Notes under the pieces: model-generated | What the model was told of the DNA's origin: nothing | Database searches by the model: none | Seen by the model: the letters and a program-made list of their open reading frames with translations, nothing else | In this document: piece by piece, positions 20,504-44,630 of the stretch | Layout of the letters: the number at the start of each line of letters is the position of its first letter | How positions within the stretch are numbered: the first letter of the stretch is position 1 | From: Frankiaceae bacterium | GTDB taxonomy: Bacteria; Actinomycetota; Actinomycetes; BP-191 | Direction of reading: 5' to 3' | Assembly: GCA_035556555.1 (NCBI GenBank) | Contig: DATMES010000002.1 | Coordinates: 62,001 to 126,000 of the forward strand | Length of the DNA: 64,000 nt | Program-made: the position numbers and the translations under genes

Positions 20504-23500
20504 GTGCGTCGTAGCCGACTGCTCTGGCTAGCGCTGCCGCTCTGCGCGGCGACGCTCCTCGCTCCGACCGGCGGCAACGCCGCCGGCGCCCCGCGAGTCA
20601 GCAAGATCGCCACGGACGTCCTGCGTCCCGGCTTCCAGGGGGAGGACAGCGACGCGCCCGGCACCCTCGACAACCGCGTCGGGTCCGTCAAGCCGACCGC
20701 GACGCAGCTCGCGATCGTGAAGAAGCTCGGCGCCAAGGCGACCTGGAGCCAGTTCGGCTCGCCGCGGTCGCTCTTCAACCGCCACGACCTCTACCTCTCG
20801 GGCCCGATGAAGGGCGACGCCGCGACCGTCGGCCGCGCCTGGATCCGCGACAACGCCGCGCTGTTCGGCCTCACGCCCGAGCTGACGGAGCCCGCGCACC
20901 TCCAGCTGGTGGCCAACAACCGCCTGTACGAGTCGCCGGACAACCGCCGCATCATGGCCGGGCTCGAGCCCCTGGCGAAGGACTCCACGGTGCCGCACGT
21001 GCTGCTGTTCCGGCAGCTGTTCGGCGGGATCGAGGCCGCGCAGGAGGGCATGATCAACCTCACGCTCGACCCCGACAACCGCGTCGTCTACGTCGCGTCG
21101 GGCGTGACCCGCGACACGAAGATCACGAACACCCGGAAGATCGACGTCGTCGAGGCGTGGCGCACCGCCGCCGCCTCCGTCGGCTGGCACGTCCCCGCAT
21201 CGCAGGTGAAGGTGCTCGACGGCCTCCTGCACGGCGAGTGGACCCGCCTGCAGGTCCCGAACGTCAAGGACCCGCAGATCGGCCGTCTCCGCGCGATCCC
21301 GACCCCGAAGGACGGCGTCCGCCTGGCGTGGGAGGTCAACACGGTCGACAACGACCGCGTCGCCACCGGCCAGCACGAGCCGCTCGCGTACATCACGTTC
21401 GTCGACGCGCAGACCAACAAGGTGATCCACCGCGCCAACGCCGTGTTCTACGCCGGCGGCGGCGTCCCCGCGTCGATGTCCGTGCCCTCGGTCGGCCCCA
21501 AGACGCAGGTCCCCGACCCGAAGTGGAAGGTCTTCCCCAACACGCCGCAGTTCGCGACCCCGGGCGTCGCCTCGCCGGACGACCGGCAGATGTGGTGCTG
21601 GTCCGTCGCCGCGACGGGCTGTGACATGGTCATCGGCGGCGCCACCGGCCACCGTGCCAAGCCGCAGCTGAAGTTCGCGTACGACGAGATTCCGGCCGAC
21701 GCCAACCTCGCGACCATCATGTTCCTGAGCAAGGGCAACGACGCCGACACCACGGCGTCGTACTTCAGCCACCTCACGCCGGACCTGCCGCGCTACGCCG
21801 CGTCGGGGACCAGGGAGTACGTCTACCCGTTCACCGACCAGTGGCACACCAGCAACTGCAACCTGTCGGGCAACTACGCGTCGACCGCCCAGAACGACAT
21901 CGACGCCGCGATCATCAACCTGTTCACCAACTACGGGCGCATGCACGACTGGTCGTACTACCTCGGGTTCACCGAGTCGACGTGGAACATGCAGCAGAAG
22001 AACCTCGGCGAAGACCAGGAGACCTCGCAGGAGCCCAAGGACGGGGACCCGGAGAAGGGCCAGGCCCAGGCCGGCGCCGTCGCGGGCTCGGTGCTGTTCA
22101 CCGGCCGTGACAACGCCAACCAGATCTCGCTGCAGGACGGCGCGCCGGGCGTCACCAACCAGTACCTCTGGCACCCGCTGCAGGCGTCGTTCTACTCGCC
22201 GTGCGTCGACGGCGCGTACGACATGGGCGTCGTCGGCCACGAGTACACCCACGCGATCAGCAACCGCATGATCGGCGGCCCGGACGCCGGCATCGGCGGC
22301 TCGGAGGGCCCGAAGATGGGCGAGGCGTGGTCCGACCTCGCGGCGATGGAGTACGTCAACGGCTTCGGCTTCGCGCCGGTCGCCGACGAGAACCCGTACG
22401 CCGTCGGCCCGTACGCCACCGGCAACAAGAACGAGGGCATCCGCAACTACGGGATGAACGACAGCCCGCTCAACTACTCGCAGCTGTTCTACGACGGCAA
22501 CGGCCAGACCGGCCCGCACTCGGACAGCGAGATCTGGAGCGCCGCGAACTTCGAGGTCCGCAAGGCCCTCATCGAGAAGTACGACGCGATGTTCCCGTCG
22601 ACCAACAAGGACCTGCAGTTCGCCTGCGCGAACGGCGAGGTCGACTCCAAGCTCTGCCCGGGCAACCGCCGCTGGATCCAGCTGATGTTCGACGGCTTCC
22701 TCATCCAGGACGCGGCGGCCGGCATGCCCGCGGCGGCCGAGGCGCAGCTCGCGGCCGACGTGGCCCGCTACAAGGGCGCCAACCAGAAGGAGATCTGGGC
22801 CGCGTACGCGAAGCGCGGCCTCGGTGACCTCTCCGACGAGGGCGGCACGCCCGACTGGTCCACCCCGAAGGAGAACAACGAGGCCCAGGTGCGCTTCCGC
22901 ACCGTCGCCGTCGACGGCGGCGGGGTGCCGAAGGACGCGTTCGTGTTCGTCGGCCCGTACACCGCCCGCACCCAGGAGGCGGCCACGTCCTCCAGCGGCG
23001 GCGCCAGCAAGATCGTGCAGTTCGTGCCGGGCAAGTACCTGTTCACCGCCCGCGCCGACGGCTACGGCCAGTACCAGTTCGAGAAGACGTTCGAGGCCGG
23101 ACAGTCGTACCTCGTCGACGTCCCGATGCGGAAGAACCTCGCGTCGGAGACCAACGGCGCGGAGGCCACCGGTGACGGCGGCAACCACTTCGCGCTCATC
23201 GACGACACCGAGGAGACCAACTGGGCCTTCCTCGGCGCCAGCACCGACGAGGTCATCGAGGGCAAGCAGGTCACGGTCGACCTGACCGGTGGCACGCACC
23301 TGGTGAAGGAGATCCAGGTCAGCGCCATCAACCGGCCCCAGCAGTCCAACGACCCGTACGACACGAAGGGCCAGAACCGCTTCGCGTCGCTGCGGTCGTT
23401 CGAGATCCTCACCTGCGACGCCGCCACCGGCGCCGACTGCGAGGAGGAGGACAGCTACACCCTCGTCTACACCAGCCCGGAGGACGCGTTCCCGACCGGC

Positions 23501-23983
23501 CGGCCGCGGCCGACGTCGGAGAACCTCCGGATGAAGACGTTCGACATCCCCGACACGAACGCGTCGCACATCCGCCTGCGGGTGCTCACCAACCAGTGCA
23601 CCGGCAACCCGGTCTACAGCGGCGAGCAGAACCCCGTCGGCGAGGCGTTCTCGTCGCCGGACTGCGTCACCGGCTTCACCGCGGCGACGCTCGTCAGCAC
23701 CGACGTGTCGATCCCTGACCCGGACGCGCCGCCGCAGGCGAACAACACGCAGCGCCACCGCGTTCGCGCGGCGGAGCTGCAGGTCTTCTCGTCGGTGACC
23801 CCTGGTGTCAAGGAAGTCATCCCGCCGAAGAAGCCGACGCCGGACAAGAAGCCCCCGGTCGTCGCCAAGCCGGACGCGAAGCCGCGGATGCCGGCCACCG
23901 GTGTCTCGCCGGTGCTGCCGATCGCCGGTCTGCTCATGGCGGGCGCCGCGGCGTACGTCCTGCGACGCCAGCGCACGGCGTAA
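20504..23983 (+). CDS. Secreted M36 (fungalysin-type) metallopeptidase with sortase-like anchor
   Basis: Large exported zinc peptidase, 1159 residues from GTG 20504. Signal peptide MRRSRLLWLALPLCAATLLA; a propeptide-like region (about 40-330) with FTP/PepSY character; catalytic part with H579-E580-x-x-H583 (GHEYTHAISNRM) and the third ligand E607 in GEAWSDLAA, the fungalysin arrangement. After the catalytic part come a carboxypeptidase-regulatory-like beta domain (about 800-880) and a discoidin-like region. The C-terminus has a Pro/Lys-rich stretch, MPATG (1129-1133), a hydrophobic segment and RRQRTA, which reads as an LPxTG-type sorting signal with Met for Leu. It would act on the cell surface. 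The gene stands alone between pstB and a terminator. Confidence 0.9.
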   Translation: MRRSRLLWLALPLCAATLLAPTGGNAAGAPRVSKIATDVLRPGFQGEDSDAPGTLDNRVGSVKPTATQLAIVKKLGAKATWSQFGSPRSLFNRHDLYLSGPMKGDAATVGRAWIRDNAALFGLTPELTEPAHLQLVANNRLYESPDNRRIMAGLEPLAKDSTVPHVLLFRQLFGGIEAAQEGMINLTLDPDNRVVYVASGVTRDTKITNTRKIDVVEAWRTAAASVGWHVPASQVKVLDGLLHGEWTRLQVPNVKDPQIGRLRAIPTPKDGVRLAWEVNTVDNDRVATGQHEPLAYITFVDAQTNKVIHRANAVFYAGGGVPASMSVPSVGPKTQVPDPKWKVFPNTPQFATPGVASPDDRQMWCWSVAATGCDMVIGGATGHRAKPQLKFAYDEIPADANLATIMFLSKGNDADTTASYFSHLTPDLPRYAASGTREYVYPFTDQWHTSNCNLSGNYASTAQNDIDAAIINLFTNYGRMHDWSYYLGFTESTWNMQQKNLGEDQETSQEPKDGDPEKGQAQAGAVAGSVLFTGRDNANQISLQDGAPGVTNQYLWHPLQASFYSPCVDGAYDMGVVGHEYTHAISNRMIGGPDAGIGGSEGPKMGEAWSDLAAMEYVNGFGFAPVADENPYAVGPYATGNKNEGIRNYGMNDSPLNYSQLFYDGNGQTGPHSDSEIWSAANFEVRKALIEKYDAMFPSTNKDLQFACANGEVDSKLCPGNRRWIQLMFDGFLIQDAAAGMPAAAEAQLAADVARYKGANQKEIWAAYAKRGLGDLSDEGGTPDWSTPKENNEAQVRFRTVAVDGGGVPKDAFVFVGPYTARTQEAATSSSGGASKIVQFVPGKYLFTARADGYGQYQFEKTFEAGQSYLVDVPMRKNLASETNGAEATGDGGNHFALIDDTEETNWAFLGASTDEVIEGKQVTVDLTGGTHLVKEIQVSAINRPQQSNDPYDTKGQNRFASLRSFEILTCDAATGADCEEEDSYTLVYTSPEDAFPTGRPRPTSENLRMKTFDIPDTNASHIRLRVLTNQCTGNPVYSGEQNPVGEAFSSPDCVTGFTAATLVSTDVSIPDPDAPPQANNTQRHRVRAAELQVFSSVTPGVKEVIPPKKPTPDKKPPVVAKPDAKPRMPATGVSPVLPIAGLLMAGAAAYVLRRQRTA

Positions 23984-25587: not shown

Positions 25588-27594
25588 ATGAGCAGCGTGC
25601 TGTCGACGGCCGGGACCCGGCCGCGCGACGAGAGCCAGTCGGCGCCCGAGCAGCGGGCGAGGTCGCTCGCGTCCGCGGCGACCCCCGTACGCCCTGGTCC
25701 AGACACGAACGACCTGCTCATCGACGCCGCCAGGCTCAGCCGCCAGGCGCTCGGCGCCGACCACGCGAGCATCCTGCTGACCGACCCGCGCGGTCGCCTC
25801 GTGCCCACGGTCTCGGTGGCACGCAAGGACGACCAGCTGCTGTGGAGCCGTTTCCGGGCGATGCCGCCGTTACGCCTCGACACCGTTCCGCTGGATAGAA
25901 CGATCCTCACGGGCTCCCGACCAATTGTCATCAATGACGTGGAATCGTCAGCCATCGTGCCCGCGGGGTGGCGGAACGCGTTCGACATTCGCTCCGCCGC
26001 GATTGCGCCGCTCGTCGTGGAGGGCGAGGTCCGCGGCGCGCTCGTCGTCGACTACTCCGGCGTGCACCACGAGTTCACCGAGGCCGAGGTACGCCTCCTC
26101 GAGGCGATGGCCAGCCCGATCCGCTACCTGCTCGGCGTGGACGACGTCGTCGAGGCGGCGGGGCGGCGCCAGGCGCTGCTCGACGTCGTCTGCGCGGCCG
26201 GCCGTGACCTCGCCGCCGCGCGGACCCGCCACGAGGTCCTGCAGACCGGCATGGACGCCGTCGTCGCGGTCCTCGGCGCGACGTCGTGCTCGGTCAACGT
26301 CGTCGCCGACGACGGCACGATCGACACCCTTGCCAGCCGCGGTCCCCGCCAGCCCGAGCCGGGCCGGCACGCGCCCGGCGACGCCGCGGTTCCCGGCGCG
26401 CAGCGCGTCCCGATGGCCGAGTCGCCGGCGGCGTACCTGCTCGTCGGCCGCGACCCCCTGTCCGCCCCGCACCCTGGCGACCTCGACGTCGCGCGGGCGC
26501 TCGCGGCGCAGACCTGGCAGGCGTACGAGCGCGCGGTCGAGACGGCGCGTCTCGACCGGCGGATCGAGTTCCTCGAGGCCGTCTACGCGCTCGCCGAGGA
26601 CGCCCTCCTCGACTCCGACATGGAGCAGCTGCTCCAGCGGCTCGCGCCGGTCGTGCGCGCGACGTCCGGCGCGGAGCTCATCGACGCGTTCCTCGCCGAC
26701 ACCGCCGCCGCGCGGGCGTTCGCGACGCCGACGCCCAACCGCCAGCTCGCCGCGCTCATCCGCCGCTGGCGGCGCGAGCCCGAGCTGCGTCCGGTCGTCG
26801 TCAACGACCTGCTCGTCGTGCCCATGGTCGTCGAGGACCAGGTCCTCGGCGTGCTGCGGGTACGCCCCGGCACCCCCGCCGAGCCCGACGCCGAGCACCT
26901 CGTCCTCGCCGTCGCGTCCGGCATCGCCGGCGTCGTCGCGCGGGTGCTGCTGCGCAAGCGGATGGCGGAGAACGAGCGCGGCCTCGCGGTCGCCGAGGAA
27001 CGCGAGCGGGTCGGCCGCGACCTGCACGACACCCTCGGCCAGCAGCTGTTCGCGCTGCGCGTCGAGCTCGACGCCATCGCCGCCACGGTCACCGACAAGG
27101 GCGTCGCGGCGCGGCTGCATTCGACCGTCTCCGCGGTGTCGCGCGCCAACGCCGACCTCCGGCTGGCGATCCACGCGCTGTCGTTCCTCGAGCACGCCAA
27201 GCGCGGCCTGGTGCCGTCGCTGCGCATGCTCGTCCGCAAGATCTCCGACACGACCGACATCGGCCTGCAGCTGCGGGTCGTCGGCGCGCCCGTACGCCTC
27301 AACCACGGCTGCGAGGAGGCGCTGTTCCGTGTCGCGCACGAGGCGCTGGCCAACGTCGTACGCCACTCGCGCGCGTCGACCGCGACGCTGACGATCTCGT
27401 TCTCGCCCGAACGCACCTCGCTCATCGTCCGCGACGACGGCACCGGCATGTCGGCGCGCTCCGACGAGCAGCGCGGCCTGCACTTCGGCCTGCGGACCAT
27501 GCAGCGGCGGATGGAGGAGATCGGCGGCGGGCTCGACGTCTCCAACTTCCGCCCGCACGGCGTCTGCCTGCACGCGTGGGTGCCGACGCGATGA
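25588..27594 (+). CDS. GAF-domain sensor histidine kinase, NarX/DesK subfamily
   Basis: Soluble histidine kinase, 668 residues from ATG 25588 (GGGGAGA site). GAF domain 1 (about 35-170, with LTDPRGRLVPTVSVARKDDQ), a second GAF-like part (about 185-310) and a third (about 330-450), then HisKA_3 with His480 (GRDLHDTLGQQLFALRVELD) and a HATPase domain (RVAHEALANVVRHSRA, VRDDGTGMS, FGLRTMQRRMEEIGG). GAF domains of this type may sense haem ligands or small molecules; no ligand residue was identified. Its stop overlaps the regulator start (ATGA). Confidence 0.9.
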   Translation: MSSVLSTAGTRPRDESQSAPEQRARSLASAATPVRPGPDTNDLLIDAARLSRQALGADHASILLTDPRGRLVPTVSVARKDDQLLWSRFRAMPPLRLDTVPLDRTILTGSRPIVINDVESSAIVPAGWRNAFDIRSAAIAPLVVEGEVRGALVVDYSGVHHEFTEAEVRLLEAMASPIRYLLGVDDVVEAAGRRQALLDVVCAAGRDLAAARTRHEVLQTGMDAVVAVLGATSCSVNVVADDGTIDTLASRGPRQPEPGRHAPGDAAVPGAQRVPMAESPAAYLLVGRDPLSAPHPGDLDVARALAAQTWQAYERAVETARLDRRIEFLEAVYALAEDALLDSDMEQLLQRLAPVVRATSGAELIDAFLADTAAARAFATPTPNRQLAALIRRWRREPELRPVVVNDLLVVPMVVEDQVLGVLRVRPGTPAEPDAEHLVLAVASGIAGVVARVLLRKRMAENERGLAVAEERERVGRDLHDTLGQQLFALRVELDAIAATVTDKGVAARLHSTVSAVSRANADLRLAIHALSFLEHAKRGLVPSLRMLVRKISDTTDIGLQLRVVGAPVRLNHGCEEALFRVAHEALANVVRHSRASTATLTISFSPERTSLIVRDDGTGMSARSDEQRGLHFGLRTMQRRMEEIGGGLDVSNFRPHGVCLHAWVPTR

Positions 27595-28223
27595 GCGCAA
27601 CGCTGCGGGTCTTCCTCGTCGACGACCACCCGATCGTCCTGGCCGCGCTGGCCGGCGCCATGGAGCCGCTCGCCGGGGTCGAGGTCGTGGGTACGGCGGC
27701 GTCGGCCGAGACGGCGTACGCCACCTTGTCCGACGAGGCCGTCGAGGTCGACGTCTGCATCGTCGACGTCTGCCTGCCCGGGGAGAGCGGCATCGACCTG
27801 TGCCGCCGCCTCGCCGACGCGCGCCCGACCGTCCGCTGCGTCGTGCTGTCCGCCGCCGACGACGTCGCCAACGCCAAGCGCGCGCTGTCCGCCGGTGCCG
27901 CGGGCTACCTCATCAAGGACATCTCCATGGACTCCCTCGTCGCGGCGGTGCGCGCGGCGGCGAGCGGGCAGTTCTTCGTCGACCCGCGTGTCGCGCGCGA
28001 CCTCCTCCAAGGTCCGCGCACCACCGGCATCGGCGCGCTGTCGCCGTCGGACCGCGAGGTGCTGCGCCTCGTCGCCGACGGGCTGTCCAACGCCGAGATC
28101 GGCTCCGCGATCCACGCCGCGCCGTCGACCGTCAAGGCGCGGGTGTCGCGGCTGCTCACCAAGCTCGGCGCGAGGACGCGCGCCGAGGCCGTCGCCATCG
28201 CCGTGCGGAACGGCGCCCTGTGA
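27591..28223 (+). CDS. NarL/FixJ-family response regulator
   Basis: DNA-binding regulator, 210 residues. Receiver with VFLVDDHPIV, phosphoacceptor D59 (CIVDVCLPGESG) and K in YLIKDIS; C-terminal LuxR-type helix-turn-helix (LSPSDREVLRLVADGLSNAEIGSAIHAAPSTVKARVSRLLTKLG). ATG 27591 overlaps the kinase stop, so the two form a cognate pair. The targets may include the secreted-protein genes that follow, but only position suggests this. Confidence 0.93.
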   Translation: MSATLRVFLVDDHPIVLAALAGAMEPLAGVEVVGTAASAETAYATLSDEAVEVDVCIVDVCLPGESGIDLCRRLADARPTVRCVVLSAADDVANAKRALSAGAAGYLIKDISMDSLVAAVRAAASGQFFVDPRVARDLLQGPRTTGIGALSPSDREVLRLVADGLSNAEIGSAIHAAPSTVKARVSRLLTKLGARTRAEAVAIAVRNGAL

Positions 28224-29186: not shown

Positions 29187-29663
29187 ATGAAGACCCGACT
29201 CATCCGTACGCTCACCGCCGTCGCCGCGCTCGCGGTCTCCGCGGTGCCCTCTCTGCAGGCCCCGGCGTCGGCGGCGGACGCGGCTGTCGTCGTCGGCATC
29301 GGCTCGATCACGCCGGGTATCCCCGTCGAGCCGACTGCCTGCGTCAACGGCGCCACGTTCACCATCCCGCTCACGGCGGCGAACCTCGGCACCCGGTTCG
29401 GCCCTGGCCCGTACTCGTTCACGGTGACGGGCACCAGCCAGACCTGCGCGTCGATCCTCAGCGACGAGGGCTCGGCGACGTTCGTCGGCGAGGTCACGGG
29501 CACGGTGCACTACACGCGAACGACCGGCTTCATCACGCTCAGCGGTTCCGTTCGCGTGAACAACTCCGCCCCGGTCGACGTCACGGTGGTGTGCGGGGTC
29601 GTGATCACCTCCGCCGCCCCGACCTCCACGTTCGCCGTGGTCTGTCCCGCTCTCATGCCGTAG
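29187..29663 (+). CDS. Secreted protein, paralogue of the gene at 28458
   Basis: 158 residues from ATG 29187 with a perfect GGAGG site. Signal peptide MKTRLIRTLTAVAALAVSAV, cleavage near ASA-AD. Mature domain with VVVGIGSITPGIP, four Cys, YSFTVTGTSQTC, EVTGTVHYTRTT and a closing CPALMP. Same fold and cysteine spacing as the preceding gene; each has its own leader and terminator, so this looks like a duplicated monocistronic gene. Both leaders carry TGCCAGCCTGC (28350 and 29091). Confidence 0.85.
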   Translation: MKTRLIRTLTAVAALAVSAVPSLQAPASAADAAVVVGIGSITPGIPVEPTACVNGATFTIPLTAANLGTRFGPGPYSFTVTGTSQTCASILSDEGSATFVGEVTGTVHYTRTTGFITLSGSVRVNNSAPVDVTVVCGVVITSAAPTSTFAVVCPALMP

Positions 29664-29688
29664 CTCCGCGCGGCCATGGCCGCGTCGT

Positions 29689-29730
29689 GGCGCAGTCGTC
29701 GACCGGCACCGTCCGGTCGGCGGCTGCGCC
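29689..29730 (+). terminator. Terminator after the secreted protein gene at 29187
   Basis: 18-bp arms (29689-29706 and 29713-29730) with two G-T pairs and a 6-nt loop, followed by GTTTGTTTCT: a classical intrinsic terminator. A 16-bp perfect palindrome CGCGGCCATGGCCGCG lies just before it (29669-29684). Confidence 0.88.
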
Positions 29731-29781
29731 GTTTGTTTCTGCCGGCCCCTCCCGGCGCCCGACCCAGCCAAGGAGCATCTG

Positions 29782-30390
29782 ATGACCCGTTCCCGCCTCG
29801 TCGCCGTGGCCGCGCTTTCGCTCGTCGCGTCGGCGACGCCCGCGTACGCCGCGAAGAAGCCCGTGATCTGCAACCTCATCAAGGACACCGCGGGCGATGC
29901 CGGCCTCGGCGGCGCCGCGGCGGCAGGAACGACGTACGACCCGAGCCTGGACATCCTGTCGGCGGACCTCGCCGTGAGCAGCAGCATGCTCACCGCGGTC
30001 ATCCGTGTGAAGGACCTCACCAAGGACGACACGCTCGCTCCGACCGGCCGTACGTGGAACATCTCGTTCACGAACGGCACGCAGAGCGTGGGGATGAGCG
30101 CGTACCTGTCGCCCCTGGGTGGTGAGCAGTTCAGCACGAAGAAGGGTGTGTTCGACTACGCGAAGGACCAGATCCGCATTCACGTCGCCCTCGCTGACAT
30201 CCCGAACGCGAAGATCAAGAAGGGCTCCGTCCTCCGCGGCTTCTACCTGGCCACCAATGTCGTCGTCGGCCTCGACCCGTCGCTCAACGCGGGCAGCTCC
30301 TTCGCGCCGCTCGGCGGCTCGACCGACTCCACGACGAGCACCGCGGCGTTCACCGTGGGGTCCCTGTCGTGCGTGAAGGTCGGCAAGTGA
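29782..30390 (+). CDS. Secreted protein heading the fused-transporter operon
   Basis: 202 residues from ATG 29782 (AAGGAG site). Signal peptide MTRSRLVAVAALSLVASATPAYA, then KKPVICNLIKDTAGDAG. The mature part looks like one beta-sandwich domain (DPSLDILSADLAVSSSMLTAVIRVKDL, TWNISFTNG, then IRIHVALADIPN) with two Cys, near the start and the end (SLSCVKVGK). No family is assigned. Its TGA overlaps the GTG of the next gene, tying it to the operon of six genes. Confidence 0.8.
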   Translation: MTRSRLVAVAALSLVASATPAYAAKKPVICNLIKDTAGDAGLGGAAAAGTTYDPSLDILSADLAVSSSMLTAVIRVKDLTKDDTLAPTGRTWNISFTNGTQSVGMSAYLSPLGGEQFSTKKGVFDYAKDQIRIHVALADIPNAKIKKGSVLRGFYLATNVVVGLDPSLNAGSSFAPLGGSTDSTTSTAAFTVGSLSCVKVGK

Positions 30391-32999
30391 GCGGTCCACC
30401 CCGGCCCGCACCCCGTAAGGCAGCGCGCGCGGTCGCAGCCCTAGCCATGGTCGTACCGGCCCTGGCCGTGGTGGCGACCGCCGCCGGCGCGCGGGCGGAC
30501 GACGAGCTGTTCCTCGAGCGCCGCTGGCGTGCGCTGCCGGGCGCGACGAACGCCCAGAACTCTCGTCTCGGACTCGACCTGCGCAACCGCACGGCGTACA
30601 CGTTCTTCTCGACCGCGGACGGCCTGACCGTCCGCGGCTGGGACCTCGACGACCTCCGTCCGAGCACGCAGCCGGTCACAGTTCCCGGAGTGCCGCAGAT
30701 CAAGGCGTCGACACCGATTGCCGTCGACGAGAGACACGCGACGGCGTTCCTCGCGCCCGAGGCGGGGCCGACGCAGTCACCGGCCGTCCACGTCTACGGC
30801 ACCCGCGGGCGCCGCATGACGCTCTTGGGACAACCGGCCACCCGGTTCCCCGGCGGGTACAACGTGCTCGGCATGACCGTGGACGCCGCGCGTGACCGGC
30901 TGCTCGTGCTGGGCGCGCCCGGCGCGGGCACCGTGGTGAAGACGGCCGGCGCGGGGGTGGGCGGCGTCCTGCTGGACACGTGGCGGCTCACCGACCTGGC
31001 CCGCGGCGTCGTCGCATCCGACACCGTGCAACCCCTGCGCGTCCCGGCCGCCTGCGGTCAGGTCATCACGACGACGTTCGCAGCGGCGATCCTGCCGTCG
31101 CCCGACGGGCGTCGCGTGTACTTCGGCTGCCTGAGCAACCGAGGACTCGTCACGCCGCTGGGGCCGAACGTCGGCGACGTCAGCGGCGTTGCCGAGCTCG
31201 ACCTCGCCGCCGCGGCGACCGGCGCCCCCACGGCGCTGCGGATCCGCCCCACCTCCGGCGACTTCGGTCAGGGCGACTCGTTCGCGCTGCCGACCGTCGG
31301 CAGGTTCGTCCTCAGTGCGGGTTCCGCCGTGACCACGACGGTCAAGGTCTTCGATGCCGTCCACGGGTACTACGTCGGCAACGTCGGCCTCAGCGACGGC
31401 ATCGCGGCGAGCGGGTTCAACCCGCGGACCGGCCGTGGCTACTACGTCAACGGCAGTGGCCTCGGGATCTACGACGCGGCCGTGACGCCGGTGCCGCAAG
31501 GCTCGATCTACGAAGACTTCACGACCGACCTGGGCATCCTGCAGCGCGGCATCGACGTCGACCCGAAGACGCGGCGGGTATTCGTCGTCACTGCCGACGA
31601 CGTCGTCAATGGCGTCGACCCGTACGTCGTCGTGTTCCGGGACGGCACACCCACCCAGGGCGACGACGACCGGGTCGACCTGTCGAGCCTCGACGTGGCC
31701 GAGCAGCCCGGCCTCTACGAGGCCTCGTGGTCGGCCGACGGCGCCGCGCTCGGCGCGGAGTTCCGCATGGTCGGCGGGCCCAACAACCTGCTGTTCAACG
31801 CCACCCACTTCGACTCGCGCGGCATCCTCACCAGGCCTGGCACGCGGTGGATGCAGTACGGCGCCGCGCGTGGCGTGCGGCTCACCCGCGACGAGGCCAG
31901 CGCCGAGGTCGTGACGAGCCGTTACGACAACGCCAGCTCGGCCGACGCCAACGGTGCGCAGCTCGCCGCGCCCGTCGTCTGCGCCGACTTCGGCTTCAGC
32001 GGCGGCGAGGTCACCGGCCACGACGCGGCGGTCCACTGCGACACGGCGAAGGCGCGCGCCGGAGGCCGCGCGATCGCCCAGCCCGCCCGCGTCCTCGCCT
32101 CGGTCACCGGCCATCCCGAGGCGGTCCCCGCGGGCGTCACCGTCAAGGTCGCCGACTCCTCCGTGGACGCTGCGCGCGACGCCGACGGCACGCTCGTGTC
32201 GACCGTCCGCGCGGAGGCCGAGGGCATCGACCTGGCCGGCGCCGTGCAGATCGGGCGGGTCGTCGCCAAGGCCACGGTCCGCGCGCACGGGAGGCCGGGG
32301 ACGGCCACGACGTCGTACGAGCGCTCGGTCACCGGCCTCGTCGTCAACGGCGTCAAGGTCTGCGACACCGACTGCCCGCTGCCCCTCGTGAAGCAGGCGG
32401 TCGACCAGGCGTTCGGCGGCCGCGTCGTCGTGGACTTCCCCAAGCCCGACGCGTACGCCGCCCCCGACGGCAGCGCGGCGCGCGTCACCGACAACAGGTA
32501 CCGCCACGTCGAGCGGGTGACGTTCGACGACGTGCCGGACGACATGACGGTCGCGCCGGCGATGGAGGTCACGGTGTACCTCGACGGCACCGCGTCGTCG
32601 CGGATGATCGTCGGGCTGGCCTCGGTCTCCGCGCAGGAGCGGTACCGCATCTACGAGGTCGGCAGCGAGCCGCCTCCGCCGCCCCGGGGGACCGCCCCGC
32701 CGACTCCTCTACCGACGCTGCCCGGCGATCCCACGGGGCCGGTGACCGGCGACGGCGGCACGACCGTCACCCGCACGGACGACGGCGGTGAGCGCCCGCT
32801 CGTCGCTGCGCCGCAGACGCCCGGCGACCTCGTCCAGCGGCTCCGCGACGGGCTGAAGGTGGTCATGCGCTCGCCCGGCCAGCTCGCGGGCGTGGCTGCG
32901 CTCTGGGCGCTGCTCGCGCTGCCCACGTACCTCGCGGCCCGCCGCCGCCTGCTGCTCGACCTGCCGTTCCTGCGCCGTTCCCTGGAGGAGTCCTCGTGA
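30387..32999 (+). CDS. Large exported, C-terminally membrane-anchored surface protein (propeller-like)
   Basis: 870 residues from GTG 30387, which overlaps the preceding stop; GTG 30369 would add six. A long signal peptide (KAARAVAALAMVVPALAVVATAAGARA) is followed by about 400 residues with repeated strand patterns like a beta-propeller: DLRNRTAYTFFST, DAARDRLLVLGA, SPDGRRVYFGC, NPRTGRGYYVNG, DPKTRRVFVVT. A Cys-containing middle region and a Pro-rich linker (PPPPPRGTAPPTPLPTLPG) follow. The tail is amphipathic, then one membrane segment (LAGVAALWALLALPTYLAA) and a basic end. It should stand on the outer face, next to the binding protein encoded by the following gene (GTGA overlap). Function unknown. 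Confidence 0.82.
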   Translation: MSGPPRPAPRKAARAVAALAMVVPALAVVATAAGARADDELFLERRWRALPGATNAQNSRLGLDLRNRTAYTFFSTADGLTVRGWDLDDLRPSTQPVTVPGVPQIKASTPIAVDERHATAFLAPEAGPTQSPAVHVYGTRGRRMTLLGQPATRFPGGYNVLGMTVDAARDRLLVLGAPGAGTVVKTAGAGVGGVLLDTWRLTDLARGVVASDTVQPLRVPAACGQVITTTFAAAILPSPDGRRVYFGCLSNRGLVTPLGPNVGDVSGVAELDLAAAATGAPTALRIRPTSGDFGQGDSFALPTVGRFVLSAGSAVTTTVKVFDAVHGYYVGNVGLSDGIAASGFNPRTGRGYYVNGSGLGIYDAAVTPVPQGSIYEDFTTDLGILQRGIDVDPKTRRVFVVTADDVVNGVDPYVVVFRDGTPTQGDDDRVDLSSLDVAEQPGLYEASWSADGAALGAEFRMVGGPNNLLFNATHFDSRGILTRPGTRWMQYGAARGVRLTRDEASAEVVTSRYDNASSADANGAQLAAPVVCADFGFSGGEVTGHDAAVHCDTAKARAGGRAIAQPARVLASVTGHPEAVPAGVTVKVADSSVDAARDADGTLVSTVRAEAEGIDLAGAVQIGRVVAKATVRAHGRPGTATTSYERSVTGLVVNGVKVCDTDCPLPLVKQAVDQAFGGRVVVDFPKPDAYAAPDGSAARVTDNRYRHVERVTFDDVPDDMTVAPAMEVTVYLDGTASSRMIVGLASVSAQERYRIYEVGSEPPPPPRGTAPPTPLPTLPGDPTGPVTGDGGTTVTRTDDGGERPLVAAPQTPGDLVQRLRDGLKVVMRSPGQLAGVAALWALLALPTYLAARRRLLLDLPFLRRSLEESS

Positions 33000-34519
33000 G
33001 CCGCTTCGGTCCCTCGGTCGACGGGTCGCTGACGACCCTCGGCGTCGTCGCGGCGGGGGTGATCGCGCTCTCCGTCGTGGCGTTGCAGCAGGGCGGCGGC
33101 ACCGTGACCGAGGCCGTCGGCCCCGGTACGTCCGTCGCCGGCACGACGCAGCAGGAGATGTCGCGCACCGACGGCACCACGACCACCACCACCGGCAAGA
33201 ACGGCGCCAAGACCGTCGCCGGCGGCAAGACGGTGAGCGGTGCCGTCAGCGGCCCCGGGGTCGCCCCCGAGGTCGCCAACGGCACCTGCAACTCCTCCAA
33301 CAACGGCGGCAAGACCGACCGCGGCGTCTCCGCCACGTCGATCAAGCTCGGCGCCACCGTCGTGCAGTCCGGCATCGGCGCGTCGTTCCTCGGCCCCGTC
33401 CGCGTCGCGCTCAACGCCGTCAAGAACGACGTCAACCGGTCGGGCGGCATCTGCGGCCGCATGCTCGAGCTGAAGCTCGTCGACGACGGCTGGGACGCCA
33501 ACCGCGGCTTCCAGTTCATCCAGAACCTCGTGCAGAGCGACAACGTCTTCGCGCTCGCGGTCAACCCGTCGTCCGAGGGCGTCCGCGTCGCGAGCATCGG
33601 CGGCTACTTCGGCAAGACGCGCACGCCGGTCGTCGGCAGCGACGGCATGCTCAACGACCAGTACCTCGACCCGTGGGTCTGGCCGATCGCCGCGTCGACC
33701 GTGTCGTCGATGCACGTCATGGCGCACGACGCGTGCAAGCGCCTGAACAAGAAGAACTTCAGCATCGTCTTCGACAACAAGTACCACTTCGGCGTCGAGG
33801 GCGCGTTCGCGTTCAACGCCGCCGTCAAGCGCTGCACGGGCAAGGACATCCCCGGCTACTTCAACCCCAAGACCGGCGGCGGGTGCAGCGCGCGGTTCTG
33901 CGCGATCACCGCCGGCCAGACGTCGTACGACACCGAGAACAAGGCGTGGAACGACGCCTGCTTCGGCGGCGCCGGCAGCGACAAGTGCGACTTCGTCGCG
34001 CTGCTGCTCGAGCCCAACGAGGCCGTCAACTTCTTACGCAACGGCACGCAGATCGAGGTCACGAAGGGCATGGCGCAGACGCTGTTCAACCGCGACTTCG
34101 CCAGCCGCTGCGGCTCCATCTGCGACGACGCGATGGTATGGACCGGCTACTACCCGCCGATCGAGCAGTTCGCCGCGATGCCCGCCGTGAAGAAGTACGT
34201 CTCGACGGTGCGCGGCGAGAGCCCCGACGTCGACGTGACCAACCAGTTCCTCGAGGGCGGCTACGCCGGCATGCAGCTGCTCGTCGACGCGCTGAAGCGC
34301 GTGGGCCCCAACCTCACCCGCGACCGGCTCAAGGCGACGCTCGACGGGATGGACCTCGACATCGGGCTGACCACGCCGCTGCGCTGGCGGCCGGGCAACC
34401 ACCTCGCCAACGCGTCCATGCGGGCGTTCGCGATCCAGTACAAGGGCGGGTTCAACGGCTTCCGCAGCGTGACCGGCTGGATCCGCGACCCGTACCTCGG
34501 CCTCGACATGGAGCGGTGA
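32996..34519 (+). CDS. Membrane-anchored Liv-type (family 6) substrate-binding protein
   Basis: Receptor of the ABC importer, 507 residues. Instead of a lipobox it has an N-terminal hydrophobic segment (LGVVAAGVIALSVVAL) and a long Thr/Gly-rich linker (TDGTTTTTTGKNG), so it probably stays attached by an uncleaved helix. The Peripla_BP_6 fold starts near residue 105 (ATSIKLGATVVQSGIGASFLG) and includes LKLVDDGWDANRGF, FSIVFDNKYHFGVEG, a Cys-rich insert (GGGCSARFCA, GSDKCDF) and ASRCGSICDDAMVWTGYYPP. The Cys insert is uncommon in amino-acid binding members. GTG start overlaps the stop of the surface protein. Substrate unknown. Confidence 0.88.
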   Translation: MSRFGPSVDGSLTTLGVVAAGVIALSVVALQQGGGTVTEAVGPGTSVAGTTQQEMSRTDGTTTTTTGKNGAKTVAGGKTVSGAVSGPGVAPEVANGTCNSSNNGGKTDRGVSATSIKLGATVVQSGIGASFLGPVRVALNAVKNDVNRSGGICGRMLELKLVDDGWDANRGFQFIQNLVQSDNVFALAVNPSSEGVRVASIGGYFGKTRTPVVGSDGMLNDQYLDPWVWPIAASTVSSMHVMAHDACKRLNKKNFSIVFDNKYHFGVEGAFAFNAAVKRCTGKDIPGYFNPKTGGGCSARFCAITAGQTSYDTENKAWNDACFGGAGSDKCDFVALLLEPNEAVNFLRNGTQIEVTKGMAQTLFNRDFASRCGSICDDAMVWTGYYPPIEQFAAMPAVKKYVSTVRGESPDVDVTNQFLEGGYAGMQLLVDALKRVGPNLTRDRLKATLDGMDLDIGLTTPLRWRPGNHLANASMRAFAIQYKGGFNGFRSVTGWIRDPYLGLDMER

Positions 34520-34528
34520 CCCGGCGCC

Positions 34529-37557
<3,029 letters not shown>

Positions 37558-37558
<1 letters not shown>

Positions 37559-38313
37559 TGGCCCTCCTCGACGTCCGCGACCTCACCGTCTCGTACGGCC
37601 CCGTCGTCGCCCTGCGCAACGTCACGCTCTCCGTCGAGCCCGGCGAGATCGTCGCGGTCATCGGCGCCAACGGCGCCGGCAAGTCCACCCTCCTCAAGTC
37701 GGTCTCGGGCCTGCTCGCGCCGCGGTCGGGGTCGATCGAGTTCGGCGGCGTGCCCATCGCGGGCAAGGCGGCGTACGACGTCATCACGCTCGGCCTCGCG
37801 CACCTGCCGGAGGGGCGTGAGCTGTTCCGCGAGCTGACCGTTCTCGAGAACCTCCACCTCGGCTTCTGGACCGGCCGCGCCGACACCGCGCTGCGCGACC
37901 AGCGCGTCGAGCAGGTGTTCGGGTACTTCCCGCGGCTGCGCGAGCGGGCCAAGCAGCGCGCGGCCACGCTGTCCGGCGGCGAGGCGCAGATGCTCGGCGT
38001 CGCGCGGGCGCTCATGTGCGAGCCGCGGCTGCTGCTCGTCGACGAGCTGTCGCTCGGGCTGGCGCCGATGGTCGTGACGCAGCTGTTCGACATCCTGCGG
38101 CAGGCCAACGACCGCGGCATGAGCCTCGTCATCGTCGAGCAGTTCGTGCACCTCGCGCTGGGCAACAGCCACCGCGCGTACGTCCTCGCCAAGGGCGAGG
38201 TGGTCCGCAGCGGCCCGAGCGCCGAGCTGCTCGCCGACCCGGCGCTGGCGGCGTCGTACCTCGGCGACTCCGCGCCCGACGCCGGGCGGCGCCGGGCCCG
38301 CGCGGGTGTCTAG
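37558..38313 (+). CDS. livF: Liv-type ABC transporter ATPase (LivF)
   Basis: Second ATPase of the importer, 251 residues. Walker A IGANGAGKST, LPEGRELFRELTVLENL (typical LivF), signature LSGGEAQMLGVARAL, Walker B LLLVDELSLGLAP and IVEQFVHLAL with the switch position as Gln-Phe. ATG 37558 shares one base with the stop of the fused gene. Its own stop lies inside the start of the next gene (8-nt overlap). Confidence 0.94.
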
Positions 38314-38791
38314 ACGGGGCGTCGCGGCGCTCGCCGGGCTGCTCGTGGTCGTCGGCGCGGTGCTCGCGGTACGCCTCGCCACCGCCTCGGGCTCCCCGCT
38401 CACGCAGGAGGAGCTGGTGGCGTACCAGGCCGCCGTCCACCCGCCGCTGTCCGAGGGCGGCCGGCTCGTGCAGGAGCGGCTCAAGCCCGCCGCCGGCGCC
38501 ACGACCCCGGTCGCCGACGCCGAGGGCTGGGCGCGCGAGCTCGAGGACGTCCGCGCGAAGGTCGCGGCCGTGGAGCCGCCGTCGCAGCTCGCGGAGGCGC
38601 ACCGGCTCTTCGACGCGGCGCTGGCGGCGTACGCGGAGACCGCGCGGCTCGTCGCCGACGGCAGCCCCGGCGCGGTGGCGACGGGGGAGCGTGCCGACAG
38701 GACGTACGACGACGCGAGCCGCATCCTCCAGCGCGAACGCCGCCGCCTCGGCCTCGGCCCGACCGCGGAGTTCCCCGACCCGGAGGCGTAA
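38306..38791 (+). CDS. Exported or membrane-anchored small helical protein, end of the transporter operon
   Basis: 161 residues from GTG 38306, overlapping the livF stop. One N-terminal hydrophobic segment (GVAALAGLLVVVGAVLAVRLA) followed by a helical domain (TQEELVAYQAAVHPPLSEGGRLVQERL, WARELEDVRAKVAAVEPPSQLAEAHRLFDAALAAYAETARL). No family is recognised. The overlap with livF suggests a part in the same uptake system, perhaps an outer accessory subunit. Its TAA stop is also the first bases of the shared GTAATCAACGG leader of the next gene. Confidence 0.78.
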   Translation: MSRRGVAALAGLLVVVGAVLAVRLATASGSPLTQEELVAYQAAVHPPLSEGGRLVQERLKPAAGATTPVADAEGWARELEDVRAKVAAVEPPSQLAEAHRLFDAALAAYAETARLVADGSPGAVATGERADRTYDDASRILQRERRRLGLGPTAEFPDPEA

Positions 38792-39064: not shown

Positions 39065-41320
39065 TCAGGTCACGGTGAGCTTCAGCGTGCGGCCGGTGCC
39101 GGGCGCGTGGTCTGGGGCGCCGCGCCAGTGGATCCGGTACAGGTACGTCCCCCGCGCGGCCGGCGTGACGTAGCGCGAGTACCTGCTCGTCGGCGACAGC
39201 GCCGAGCGGACGACGTTGCGCCACCCGATGCCGGTGTACCAGCGCTGCAGCCAGTACGTCGTCCCCGGGTGCGCCGGCGTGACGGCGCCGTAGATCCGCG
39301 CGGTCGACCCGAGCGGCATGCTCGCCGTCGACAGCGTCGAGGTCACCTTCGCCGCGACGACGACGGTCTGCGCGGGCTGCGTCGCGGGCGCGTACGACGC
39401 GTCGCCGGCCCACACCCACCGCACGGACACGGCGGCGGAGGGCTTGAACGTCACCCGCACCCGCCCGTCCGCGCCGGTGACGGCGGTCGTGATCGCCGGC
39501 CAGGTCGTGGTGCCGTTGCGCTGGCCCTGCAGCGTCAGCGTCCGCCCCGGCACACCGGCCCCGCCGGAGACGAGCCGGCCGGTCACGGTGACCGTGGCGC
39601 CGTACACGACGCTCTTCGGCGAGACCCCGAGCGTGACCGCGGCCGGCGCCGGCGTCGTCGGGATCACGAGGAGCGTGATGCTGTTCGCGGGGTACGACGC
39701 CGACACCGCGCCGCCGGTGACCGGCACGTCGGCGAGGTGCTGGATCGCACCGAGGTCGGCCGCCGAGTACCGCCACACCCGCGCCCCCGCGCCGAACGAC
39801 GCGCCCGACAGCCCCACAGGCGACGACAGCTCCTCGCCGGTCTTGTTGACGACCATGACGGTGACGGCGCCGTCGGAGGAGCGCTGCGCGGCGTACGCCG
39901 CGAGCCGGCCCTGGTCACCCGACGTCGCGCGGACCGACGTGTCGCCGAAGCGGCCGCCGCTGCCGTCGTACTCGCGGTACATCCGGAACGCGTACGCCCC
40001 CGGGTCCTCGTCGTCGAGCCCGCCCCAGAGCATCGCGGCGTCGAGGCGCTCTCGGCCGAATATGCCGAGGACGTCGGCCTGCGCGAGGGCGCCGTTCATC
40101 GACTCGTGGCCGCCGAAGTCGTACTCGCTGACCATCGTCCGCGTGCCCGGGTAGCGCGCAGCGACGATCTCGCGCATCCACGGGATGAGCCTGATCGGCG
40201 GGGCGCCGACGGCGCCGCCGATCCACGACTCGTCGGTGTACGTGGGGTCCCACAGGCTGCGCGTCGACCGCAGCCGCAGCGCCTGCGTCTCCGCCGACCC
40301 CGCGCTCGCCAGGGCGACGCCGGTGGCCTGCGGGTAGTAGTGCTCGTCGAACACGTCGAGCAGCCGCTTGCCTGCCGTGGCCGACGCCGCCTTCATCTCC
40401 GCGAGGTACCACTCGGCCATCGGCACGCCGCCGTGCGCCGTACGGTCCGGGCCGTTGCCGCAGCCCTCGCTGTCGGCGGGGGAGTAGAAGTACGCGCACC
40501 AGCCCCAGTCGCCGGGGCCGCTCACCGCCGCGGCCGCGTCGGCGGCCTTGACCGCCTTGGCCGTCGCGACGGAGCGGTCGCGGAGCTGGTCGTACGTCAC
40601 CGGGGCCGGGTGCACGTCGCGGTGCGTGTCGTCCCAGAGCGCGGGCTCGTTGTCGAGCGCGTACGTCCGCACCCCCGTCGTGGCAGCCGGGCCGTGCGTC
40701 GCGACGAGGTGCTCGACCATCGTCTTCACGAACGCCGGCCCCGCCGCGACCGACGTGTCCAGCGGGTCGTTGCCGGTGATCTCGGCGCCGCCGGGAGAGG
40801 CGAGCCCGTTGCCGCAGTCGGGGTCCCACTGCGAGTCGGTGCCGGTCTGCGCGCCGTACTTCGAGACCGTGAACCCGCACGCGAACGGGTGCGTGGCCGG
40901 CGAGTCCTTGGCGACCCAGCCGGTCATCGGCACGGTGACGACGGGGCGTACGCCGCGTGAGAGGTCGCCCGCGACCTTGCTGTCGAGCGAGTCGCCGGGG
41001 TCGCGGACGATGTTCTCGAAGTACCAGTCGCTCCCGGTGTTGTGCGTGTTGTTGGTCCAGTTGTAGCGGCTCGTCGCGTTGCCGCCCCAGCGGTCTGCCG
41101 TGAGGCCCAGCGAGGTCTGGAGGGATGCGGGCGCGTAGTTCATGCCGTAGACGTCGGGGCTGATGGGGTGGCGGCCGGCGGCGACGTCCACGGCGAGCGC
41201 CGGACCGGCTGTGGCGAGCGCGGGGGCGGCGGGAGCCAGCGCGACGGCGAGCGCGCAGGCGACGACGGCGGCGAGACGGGGCACACCAGCAGTGTCGGCG
41301 TTCGCGCGGTCCGGGTTCAC
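39065..41320 (-). CDS. Secreted GH44-type glycoside hydrolase with C-terminal Ig-like domains
   Basis: 751 residues from GTG 41320; GTG 41284 (PRLAAVVACALAVALA) gives a tidier signal peptide and is an equal candidate. The catalytic part (about 40-430) fits the GH44 endoglucanase/xyloglucanase family: PDVYGMNYAP, DRWGGNATSRYNW, the proton donor in LDNEPALW and the nucleophile in VSEYDFGGHES. A beta-sandwich finishes the GH fold (about 430-510). Two Ig-like domains follow (VSPKSVVYGATVTVTGRL; TSTLSTASMPLGSTARIYGAV), probably for cell-wall or sugar attachment. It lies on the opposite strand inside the microprotein cluster, its stop 3 bp from the stop of microprotein A. Confidence 0.88.
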   Translation of the reverse strand: MNPDRANADTAGVPRLAAVVACALAVALAPAAPALATAGPALAVDVAAGRHPISPDVYGMNYAPASLQTSLGLTADRWGGNATSRYNWTNNTHNTGSDWYFENIVRDPGDSLDSKVAGDLSRGVRPVVTVPMTGWVAKDSPATHPFACGFTVSKYGAQTGTDSQWDPDCGNGLASPGGAEITGNDPLDTSVAAGPAFVKTMVEHLVATHGPAATTGVRTYALDNEPALWDDTHRDVHPAPVTYDQLRDRSVATAKAVKAADAAAAVSGPGDWGWCAYFYSPADSEGCGNGPDRTAHGGVPMAEWYLAEMKAASATAGKRLLDVFDEHYYPQATGVALASAGSAETQALRLRSTRSLWDPTYTDESWIGGAVGAPPIRLIPWMREIVAARYPGTRTMVSEYDFGGHESMNGALAQADVLGIFGRERLDAAMLWGGLDDEDPGAYAFRMYREYDGSGGRFGDTSVRATSGDQGRLAAYAAQRSSDGAVTVMVVNKTGEELSSPVGLSGASFGAGARVWRYSAADLGAIQHLADVPVTGGAVSASYPANSITLLVIPTTPAPAAVTLGVSPKSVVYGATVTVTGRLVSGGAGVPGRTLTLQGQRNGTTTWPAITTAVTGADGRVRVTFKPSAAVSVRWVWAGDASYAPATQPAQTVVVAAKVTSTLSTASMPLGSTARIYGAVTPAHPGTTYWLQRWYTGIGWRNVVRSALSPTSRYSRYVTPAARGTYLYRIHWRGAPDHAPGTGRTLKLTVT

Positions 41321-42440: not shown

Positions 42441-43187
42441 TCACCGGCGGCGTCCGGCCTGGCCGTGCACGATGCGCTCCGCGATCTCGCGCAGCTTGAC
42501 GTTCTCGCGCTGCGACGCGGCGCGCAGCAGCGCGAACGCCTCCTCCGGCGTGCACCCCTGCTCGGCCATGAGCACGCCCTTCGCCTGCTCGATGACCGCG
42601 CGCGAGGCCATCGCGTCCTGGAGCTGCTCGGCGAGCGTACGGCTGGCGCGGTAGACCTCGGCGTTCGTGATCGCGACGCTGGCCTGTCCCGCGAAGAGCC
42701 TGCCGACGTCGGTCGCCCCGTCGAAGCCGTCGTGGTCGGTGGAGTAGAGGTTCAGGGCGCCGATCGACCGGCCGCTGACGGACAGTGGCAGCGACAGCGA
42801 CGAACGGATGCCCTGGCGCGTCGCGGCGTCCGCGAAGACCGGCCACCGCGCGTCGGCGGACATCTCGGGGATGACGTAGACCTCGCCGTAGCGGCTCGCG
42901 TCGAGGCAAGGGCCTTCGAGGGTCTCGTACTGCGCGTTGTCGAGCTGCTGGGCCAGGTCGTCGGTGCTGACGACGGTGTACGGCTGCCCCTCGGCCCAGA
43001 GCGTCACGCTGCCGGCCGAGCAGCGGGGGATGGTCGCGCAGGCGAGGTCGGCGAGACGCTGCAGCGTCTCCTCGTACGACTCCTCCGTCTGGAGGAGGCC
43101 CACCAGCTCCGCCCGCCGAGCGGCCAGCTCGTCGGGGGTCTCGGCGGCGACGGGATCAGGGGCGTCGTCGGGACGCGCGGTACTCAC
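42441..43187 (-). CDS. GAF-ANTAR regulator (RNA-binding antiterminator type)
   Basis: 248 residues from GTG 43187 (AAGGTGAAAC site). GAF domain about 40-180 (PRCSAGSVTLWAEGQPYTVVSTDD, EGPCLDASRYGEVYVIPEM, SLSLPLSVSGRSIGALNLYS) and a C-terminal ANTAR domain (about 190-245: LQDAMASRAVIEQAKGVLMAEQG, EEAFALLRAASQRENVKLREIAERIV). ANTAR domains bind paired RNA hexaloop hairpins to prevent termination; the target here is not known. Divergent from gdh. Confidence 0.93.
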   Translation of the reverse strand: MSTARPDDAPDPVAAETPDELAARRAELVGLLQTEESYEETLQRLADLACATIPRCSAGSVTLWAEGQPYTVVSTDDLAQQLDNAQYETLEGPCLDASRYGEVYVIPEMSADARWPVFADAATRQGIRSSLSLPLSVSGRSIGALNLYSTDHDGFDGATDVGRLFAGQASVAITNAEVYRASRTLAEQLQDAMASRAVIEQAKGVLMAEQGCTPEEAFALLRAASQRENVKLREIAERIVHGQAGRRR

Positions 43188-43376
43188 GTTTCACCTTCGA
43201 GGACGGTCCGGGCTCTCGCCGCCTGCGGACTCGAGCGGCGTTTCCTGCGGGTTCATGCCGTGTCGTATGCCCCGCCGGAGGCGGATTCTACCGGTGATCT
43301 GAGCGTGCTTTGTGCCCCGGGGAGGGGTAGGGCTCTACTCTTGTGCGACGCGTTCACCGAGGAGGGTGCGTTCCAC

Positions 43377-44630
43377 GTGGGTAGCGGGCAGACCGCTTGG
43401 GAGTCGGCGCTGATCCAGCTGGAGAACGCCGTTCGCGAGCTGGGTCTCGACGACGGTCTCCACCAGCTGCTGCGGACGCCACGGCGGGCGCTCACCGTGT
43501 CGGTGCCGCTGCGCTACGACGACGGCCACGTCGAGGTGCTCACCGGCTACCGCGTCCAGCACAACCTCGCCCGCGGCCCCGCCAAGGGCGGCGTGCGCTA
43601 CCACCCGGGCACCGACCTCGACGAGGTCAAGGCGCTGGCGATGTGGATGACGTGGAAGTGCGCGCTCATCGGGATCCCGTACGGCGGGGCGAAGGGCGGC
43701 GTCGCGGTCGATCCCAAGCTGCTGTCCCGCAACGAGGTCGAGCGGGTCACCCGGCGGTACGCCTCGGAGATCATCCCGATCATCGGCCCCGAGCGGGACA
43801 TCCCCGCGCCCGACATGGGCACCGACGAGCAGACGATGGCCTGGATGATGGACACGTTCTCGGTCCAGACCGGCTACTCGGTGCCCGGCGTCGTCACCGG
43901 CAAGCCCGTCGCCATCGGCGGCTCCGAGGGTCGTGGCGGTGCCACGTCCCGGGGCGTCATGTACTCGACGTTCTCCGCGCTGCGCGAGGCGGGCGTCGAC
44001 TACCGCGGCGCCTCCGTCGCGGTGCAGGGCTTCGGCAAGGTCGGCGGGCTGGCCGCGCAGTACCTCCACGACGCCGGCTGCAAGGTCGTCGCGGTCAGCG
44101 ACGTCAAGGGTGGCATCTACAACCCGCGCGGCCTCAACCCCATCGCGCTGATGCGCCATCTTCGCGCCGGCGCCGACACCGTCGTCGGCTACCCCGGCAC
44201 CGACACCATCACCAACGACGAGCTGGTCGAGCTCGACGTCGACGTGCTCGTCCCCGCCGCGCTCGAGGGCGTCGTCACCGAGGAGAACGCCGACCGCGTC
44301 CGCGCGAAGTTCATCGTCGAGGGCGCCAACGGCCCCACCACTCCCGCCGCCGACTCGATCCTCGAGGACCGTGGCGTCACCGTCGTCCCCGACGTGCTCG
44401 CCAACTCCGGCGGCGTCGCGGTGTCGTACTTCGAGTGGGTCCAGGACCTGCAGGCGTACTTCTGGAGCGAGGACGAGGTCAACGACCGCCTCAAGGCGCT
44501 CATGGACCGGGCGTACACCGACGTGTCCGGGCTGGCCCGTGAGCGCGGGGTGTCGCTGCGTACGGCGGCGCAGATGATCGGCGTCGGCCGCGTCGCCGAG
44601 GCCCACCGCACCCGCGGCCTCTACCCGTAG
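43377..44630 (+). CDS. gdhA: Glutamate dehydrogenase (Glu/Leu/Phe/Val family)
   Basis: Interconverts glutamate and 2-oxoglutarate plus ammonia using NAD(P); 417 residues from GTG 43377 (GAGGAGGG site), the small hexameric type. Substrate region YRVQHNLARGPAKGGVRYHP and ALIGIPYGGAKGGVAVDP (catalytic Lys), ERDIPAPDMGTDEQTMAWMMD, dinucleotide fold VAVQGFGKVGG, and EGANGPTTPAADSIL, NSGGVAVSYFEWVQ. Cofactor preference cannot be fixed by eye. Monocistronic, followed by hairpin repeat A3. Confidence 0.94.
   Translation: MGSGQTAWESALIQLENAVRELGLDDGLHQLLRTPRRALTVSVPLRYDDGHVEVLTGYRVQHNLARGPAKGGVRYHPGTDLDEVKALAMWMTWKCALIGIPYGGAKGGVAVDPKLLSRNEVERVTRRYASEIIPIIGPERDIPAPDMGTDEQTMAWMMDTFSVQTGYSVPGVVTGKPVAIGGSEGRGGATSRGVMYSTFSALREAGVDYRGASVAVQGFGKVGGLAAQYLHDAGCKVVAVSDVKGGIYNPRGLNPIALMRHLRAGADTVVGYPGTDTITNDELVELDVDVLVPAALEGVVTEENADRVRAKFIVEGANGPTTPAADSILEDRGVTVVPDVLANSGGVAVSYFEWVQDLQAYFWSEDEVNDRLKALMDRAYTDVSGLARERGVSLRTAAQMIGVGRVAEAHRTRGLYP

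Follow-up and report, generated by a model that had tools for sequence, protein, structure and literature searches.

We analyzed a 64,000-nucleotide stretch of DNA from a Frankiaceae bacterium (here referred to as the window; source genome of 3.98 Mb in 71 contigs), in which a set of tightly coupled genes joins a large surface protein of 870 residues, p870, to a receptor and an ATP-binding cassette (ABC) importer of the Liv type. An earlier note, made from the sequence alone, had described six genes here as one unit, s202 - p870 - receptor - LivHMG - LivF - c161. The open reading frames (ORFs) and their overlaps are real and lie as follows:

29782..30390, +, s202, a secreted protein
30387..32999, +, p870, 870 amino acids, GTG start (the longest ORF begins 18 bases earlier), opening with a signal peptide
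30501-31661, +, beta-propeller of p870
31662-32657, +, second beta domain of p870, followed by a disordered linker
32874-32960, +, membrane helix of p870
32996..34519, +, receptor, with an N-terminal membrane helix (33029-33085), a Thr/Gly-rich linker, and a Peripla_BP_6 domain with six invariant cysteines
34529..37558, +, LivHMG, i.e., LivH, LivM, and LivG in a single chain of 1009 amino acids
37558..38313, +, LivF-type ATPase
38306..38791, +, c161, hydrophobic near its N-terminus, with one more domain that its sequence suggests to be helical

At the stop-start overlap at 30387, GTGA is read in the sequence. Internal promoters, which the earlier note had named as counter-evidence, were sought as sigma-70-like sites, and none was found inside the unit (0.3 expected), which in GC-rich DNA is weak evidence. 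Pfam searches identified Peripla_BP_6 in the receptor (1.6e-36), two BPD_transp_2 stretches together with ABC_tran and BCA_ABC_TP_C in the fused chain, and ABC_tran in LivF. For Liv-type importers, a receptor, a channel, and ATPases are considered sufficient. The unit resembles Liv/HAAT systems (LivKHMGF) in its receptor domain, two permeases, and two ATPases, and differs from them by the fusion of both permeases to LivG, the helix-tied receptor, the constant presence of p870, and its scores against the NCBIfam LivG and LivF equivalogs. Because the best of these models stayed below their cut-offs (245.8 bits against 362 for LivG and 207.6 against 441 for LivF), we refer to the transporter as Liv-type and not by a named equivalog. 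Pfam and NCBIfam searches gave no match for s202, p870, or c161. Searches of PDB sequences gave only chance matches for a p870 profile (best E-value 0.4) and no useful match for profiles of s202 and c161.

p870 and the receptor are inherited as a pair

A search with the single p870 sequence matched in 3 of 79 relatives, and a contig scan with the same sequence gave no match. Among 393 genomes of the class, a three-row p870 profile gave 10 matches, in 8 genomes; among 396 of the phylum, a ten-row profile matched in 9, including two with proteins other than p870 (G027, 18 bits; G426, 25 bits); and a 22-row profile matched in 2 of the 198 genomes from G643's class and in 3 of the 5 from that of G415. 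Scanning named genomes with a receptor alignment identified 11 loci, all in metagenome-assembled genomes titled Frankiales or Frankiaceae, Acidimicrobiaceae (one), Actinomycetota, or Acidobacteria (one); the genome under the last title appears to belong to the phylum of the window. Before counting, we dropped the two p870-profile matches below 30 bits (a propeller-less neighbor protein in G426 and a chance match in G027), same-locus duplicates across two collections (L025-L029, L031, and L032), and L033 and L088, in which the contig stops before p870. After removal of duplicates, there were 27 p870 loci in 17 Actinomycetota genomes. The 27th, L160, in which the contig stops at p870, was also left out of the counts. 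One of the loci, L022 on contig C42, lies in the window's own genome and is a second complete p870 unit, a paralogue that falls in a different clade.

In all 26 loci that do not stop at a contig edge, genes for the receptor, the permease-ATPase, and LivF immediately follow p870. LivHMG is one chain in 22 of these loci and is split as H|MG in the other 4. Because 25 of the 27 loci were recovered by p870 searches alone, this linkage is not built into the search; all 24 testable loci among those 25 carry the transporter, as do the two added by the receptor search. Thus, the association of the surface protein with the transporter exceeds chance, and p870 homologues without the transporter, which, if regularly found, the earlier note had named as counter-evidence, did not appear among these loci. 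In the reverse direction, a receptor profile used on 396 genomes gave 13 matches above 500 bits, 12 of which have p870 upstream, the 13th lying at a contig end. Three receptors at 430-444 bits (L157-L159) also have p870. The next match in the 396 genomes, at 210 bits, was L089, the nearest receptor relative without p870, in which the receptor begins with a lipoprotein signal; the others were below 60 bits.

For 23 of the 27 loci, we compared the trees of p870 and the receptor and observed a correlation of r 0.936, with 0 of 2000 label permutations as high; nearest neighbors agreed between the two trees for 15 of the 23. In the multi-module genomes (G000, G002, G643, G415, and G429), the modules fall into different clades that largely match between the trees, and the paralogues of G000, G643, G415, and G429 sit in matching clades of both. 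The branches of p870 are longer than those of the receptor. For the p870 and receptor genes, 23 loci were examined, and 9 have a stop-start overlap (gap value -4). Since species history alone would not yield matching paralogue clades, we conclude that p870 and the receptor are passed on together and that modules duplicate or move whole. Adjacency by itself proves no function, and p870 might merely hitch-hike in the operon; however, gene order and overlaps are conserved across divergent lineages, the trees match, and paralogues partition alike, and we consider this explanation, already disfavored, to be highly improbable.

Anchors and domains of the receptor and p870

None of the 26 p870-linked receptors has a lipobox, and all 26 have a hydrophobic segment ahead of the binding domain; in most, a low-complexity linker comes after this segment. 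By contrast, of 14 receptors from Liv systems that lack p870, 13 have a lipobox, these 14 being weak receptor-profile matches in the loci covered and no random sample; the exception, L057, is a system with a propeller-less anchored protein. The difference from known Liv receptors drawn in the earlier note was therefore borne out. Judged from its sequence, the N-terminal segment of the p870-linked receptors is a membrane helix, and in some of them it may be a cleaved signal peptide. The Cys-rich insert of the receptor is also as described, with Cys 297, 302, 372, and 376 and, in addition, Cys 98 and 153 invariant in 10 receptors. The nearest solved receptor structure is 4n03 (1.2e-8), which we take to be a palmitate-bound protein of Thermomonospora curvata. 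Genes for AMP-binding (acyl-CoA-ligase-like) proteins lie near two loci (L055 and L087). We considered fatty acids as the ligand and do not commit to them.

The predicted structure of p870 has a mean predicted local distance difference test score (pLDDT) of 80.3 and a predicted template modeling score (pTM) of 0.77. Residues 39-425 of the model align to propellers with Z scores of 23-26, including Escherichia coli YncE (Z 24.8 over 302 residues at 3.3 Å), in agreement with the propeller-like character proposed earlier. The second domain folded alone gave a pLDDT of 86.8 and a pTM of 0.87. A PDB fold search with this domain gave no convincing match; the best, at a Z score of 5.7, were outer-membrane barrels. 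Because this score is below the level that the tool itself treats as meaningful, we claim the domain neither as a barrel nor as a new fold. In the model, residues 760-814 have low confidence, as for a linker, and residues 830-858 are helical; these latter residues are the predicted C-terminal membrane anchor, which carries an invariant RR pair at 852-853.

Across alignments of 22 of the 27 loci, the mean majority fraction is higher in the second domain than in the propeller (0.419 vs 0.335). The best conserved columns include the second domain, Cys pairs, and the RR closing the membrane helix, and the invariant residues are G456, R487, C532, C551, G635, P685, G695, D733, A745, R852, and R853. 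No catalytic motif was found in p870. The protein could act enzymatically on a polymer or conjugate and deliver the resulting product, as would fit a large, multi-domain protein on the surface that in L048 has a further protein, one with BNR repeats, upstream; however, p870 has no Pfam match, its invariant residues in our judgment suggest no known active site, and an enzymatic role is very unlikely.

The second domain weakly matched the NCBIfam family choice-of-anchor P (NF040603) in 4 of 22 p870 proteins (best 4e-05). p870 resembles this family in these matches and in C-terminal anchoring and differs in that the scores of all scanned p870 proteins are below the 27-bit cut-off (best 22.2), the protein of the window having no match. 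The family itself was found in 45 of 296 sampled genomes. In 8 of 20 stretches chosen from these matches (L126, L127, L129, L131, L132, L133, L135, and L136), a shorter, propeller-less protein with a C-terminal membrane segment adjoins a Liv operon; the 20 were hand-picked (15 weak or partial matches and 5 strong controls), and the fraction is no rate. L057, in which the propeller-less protein scores 27.0 bits against NF040603, and L090 provide two further cases. Most of these neighbors also carry an N-terminal hydrophobic segment. The ten propeller-less proteins, with a choice-of-anchor-P-like region and directly adjoining ordinary Liv operons, are apparently undescribed partners. We reject a general role of choice-of-anchor P proteins as Liv partners, as 0 of the 5 strong control matches were Liv-linked. 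In searches of open-licence papers in PubMed Central, neither p870 nor a Liv importer paired with a protein of this kind came up, and choice-of-anchor P gave 0 papers.

A candidate capture-and-hand-over importer

From the anatomy of the unit and its co-evolution, we infer functions in ligand capture, docking, hand-over, and regulation. Our preferred reading, which we hold to have about an even chance of being correct, is that the unit is a Liv-type ABC importer with p870 as a dedicated external capture-and-hand-over subunit. A single membrane helix with a long flexible linker would hold p870, and another such pair the receptor, at the outer face of the cytoplasmic membrane. The variable propeller would most likely bind a scarce ligand, or a ligand carrier, and the better conserved second domain would dock on the tethered receptor. 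The receptor would then deliver the ligand to the LivHM channel, which LivG and LivF would drive. The higher conservation of the second domain would fit docking by this domain, with the propeller as a variable part that faces outward.

Three points weigh against this reading. First, L089 demonstrates that such transporters exist without p870. Second, some ordinary Liv operons with lipid-anchored receptors also have an anchored partner and, because the proteins accompanying them are propeller-less, neither the propeller nor the receptor membrane helix is needed for the association. p870 may, in consequence, be an elaborate, propeller-bearing version of an arrangement that is more widespread among actinobacterial Liv importers. 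Third, propellers often act merely as scaffolds. p870 might accordingly be a structural or spacing partner that stabilizes the tethered receptor or fixes its position in the wall, without binding a ligand. The invariant residues form no catalytic-looking cluster and, as described above, the best conserved columns include the second domain, Cys pairs, and the RR that closes the membrane helix, both of which are consistent with such a role; however, it leaves unexplained why p870 is so large and why its propeller diverges faster than its second domain, and we regard it as unlikely.

The capture-and-hand-over reading has parallels in two known systems. BtuG of Bacteroides, as described in an excerpt of the report on it, is a seven-bladed surface propeller for B12 capture, an outer-membrane lipoprotein with a TonB-dependent transporter as its partner, the gene for which it adjoins in nearly all loci (PMC6143338). 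p870 is similar in having a predicted propeller and a gene beside that of a transporter; it differs by the extra domain, the C-terminal membrane helix, and the ABC partner, and is not of the lipoprotein/TonB-dependent type. HtaA and ChtA of Corynebacterium are heme surface proteins, according to a partial text of the source, presumably tethered by a C-terminal helix and thought to feed the ABC importer HmuTUV (PMC12494546). Like them, p870 is a C-terminally tethered surface protein with an ABC importer in an actinobacterium; unlike them, for which heme is the known ligand, it has different domains. As to the CR (HtaA) domain, the Pfam search of p870 gave no family at all. HmuTUV is of a different importer class than the Liv type.

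Tentatively, and with somewhat less than even confidence, we propose that p870 represents a new class of ABC-importer subunit, an outward, C-terminally anchored capture protein serving a receptor that swapped its lipid anchor for a membrane helix; p870, with a domain that has no clear match among solved folds, may be the propeller branch of a wider, undescribed Liv habit. If true, an external capture step would have been added to one of the commonest importer families in a Gram-positive-type envelope, comparable to BtuG or the corynebacterial heme proteins, and the strict co-inheritance of a large surface protein would be matched by altered receptor anchoring. The proposal points to a possible role for an unnamed protein family of uncultured bacteria, and p870 and the receptor form a testable pair.

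Accessory genes and surroundings

Upstream of s202, the window contains the following features:

25588..27594, +, histidine kinase with GAF, HisKA_3, and HATPase_c domains
27597..28223, +, LuxR/NarL-type response regulator, like the regulators in L004 and L024
28449..28919 (profile span), +, s158 family, copy 1, a small secreted protein
29187..29663, +, s158 family, copy 2, a small secreted protein
29687..29732, +, terminator-like hairpin of 20 pairs in the gap between s158 and s202

Terminator-like hairpins occur at 6 sites in the region vs 2.4 expected. Of the six-gene unit proposed earlier, the four-gene core is constant, whereas s202 (9 of 26 loci), c161 (10 of 26), the small secreted proteins, and the upstream GAF sensor are lineage-specific. 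The conserved neighborhood also reaches further upstream than had been proposed, to the s158 pair, the GAF kinase, and the LuxR regulator, and the hairpin lies just before s202. The s158 family was matched (E-value up to 1e-3) in 6 of 26 loci, and a GAF protein lies upstream of p870 in 8 of 26, some without a detected kinase domain. Because several loci are incomplete upstream, these accessory-gene counts are lower bounds. The full pair of kinase and regulator is present in the window, L004, and L024, the kinase of L004 being recognized by BLAST similarity only. s202 and c161 may be lineage-specific helpers, and the kinase and regulator probably control the unit in the lineage of the window.

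The GAF proteins, and the full pairs in particular, would also fit a unit that is mainly a sensing device, in which the GAF kinase and LuxR regulator receive a signal from occupied surface proteins or from imported ligand. However, the test used found no GAF gene in 18 of 26 loci, some of them incomplete upstream, and a complete ABC importer is present in all; we consider a mainly sensory function to be quite unlikely.

Two related s158 proteins, of an unnamed family, also adjoin p870 units in other genomes. In L021-L023, genes for a lipoprotein-like protein and another small secreted protein are inserted between s202 and p870. Upstream of p870 in L048 lies a gene for a 606-residue BNR-repeat protein (L048:12191-14008), possibly another surface propeller. 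Elsewhere in the window, a glycoside hydrolase family 44 protein is encoded on the opposite strand, converging on the unit (39065-41320, -), a large M36 fungalysin-type metallopeptidase is encoded at 20504-23983, and a Glu/Leu/Phe/Val dehydrogenase is encoded at 42465-44630, its ORF as called including a long N-terminal extension.

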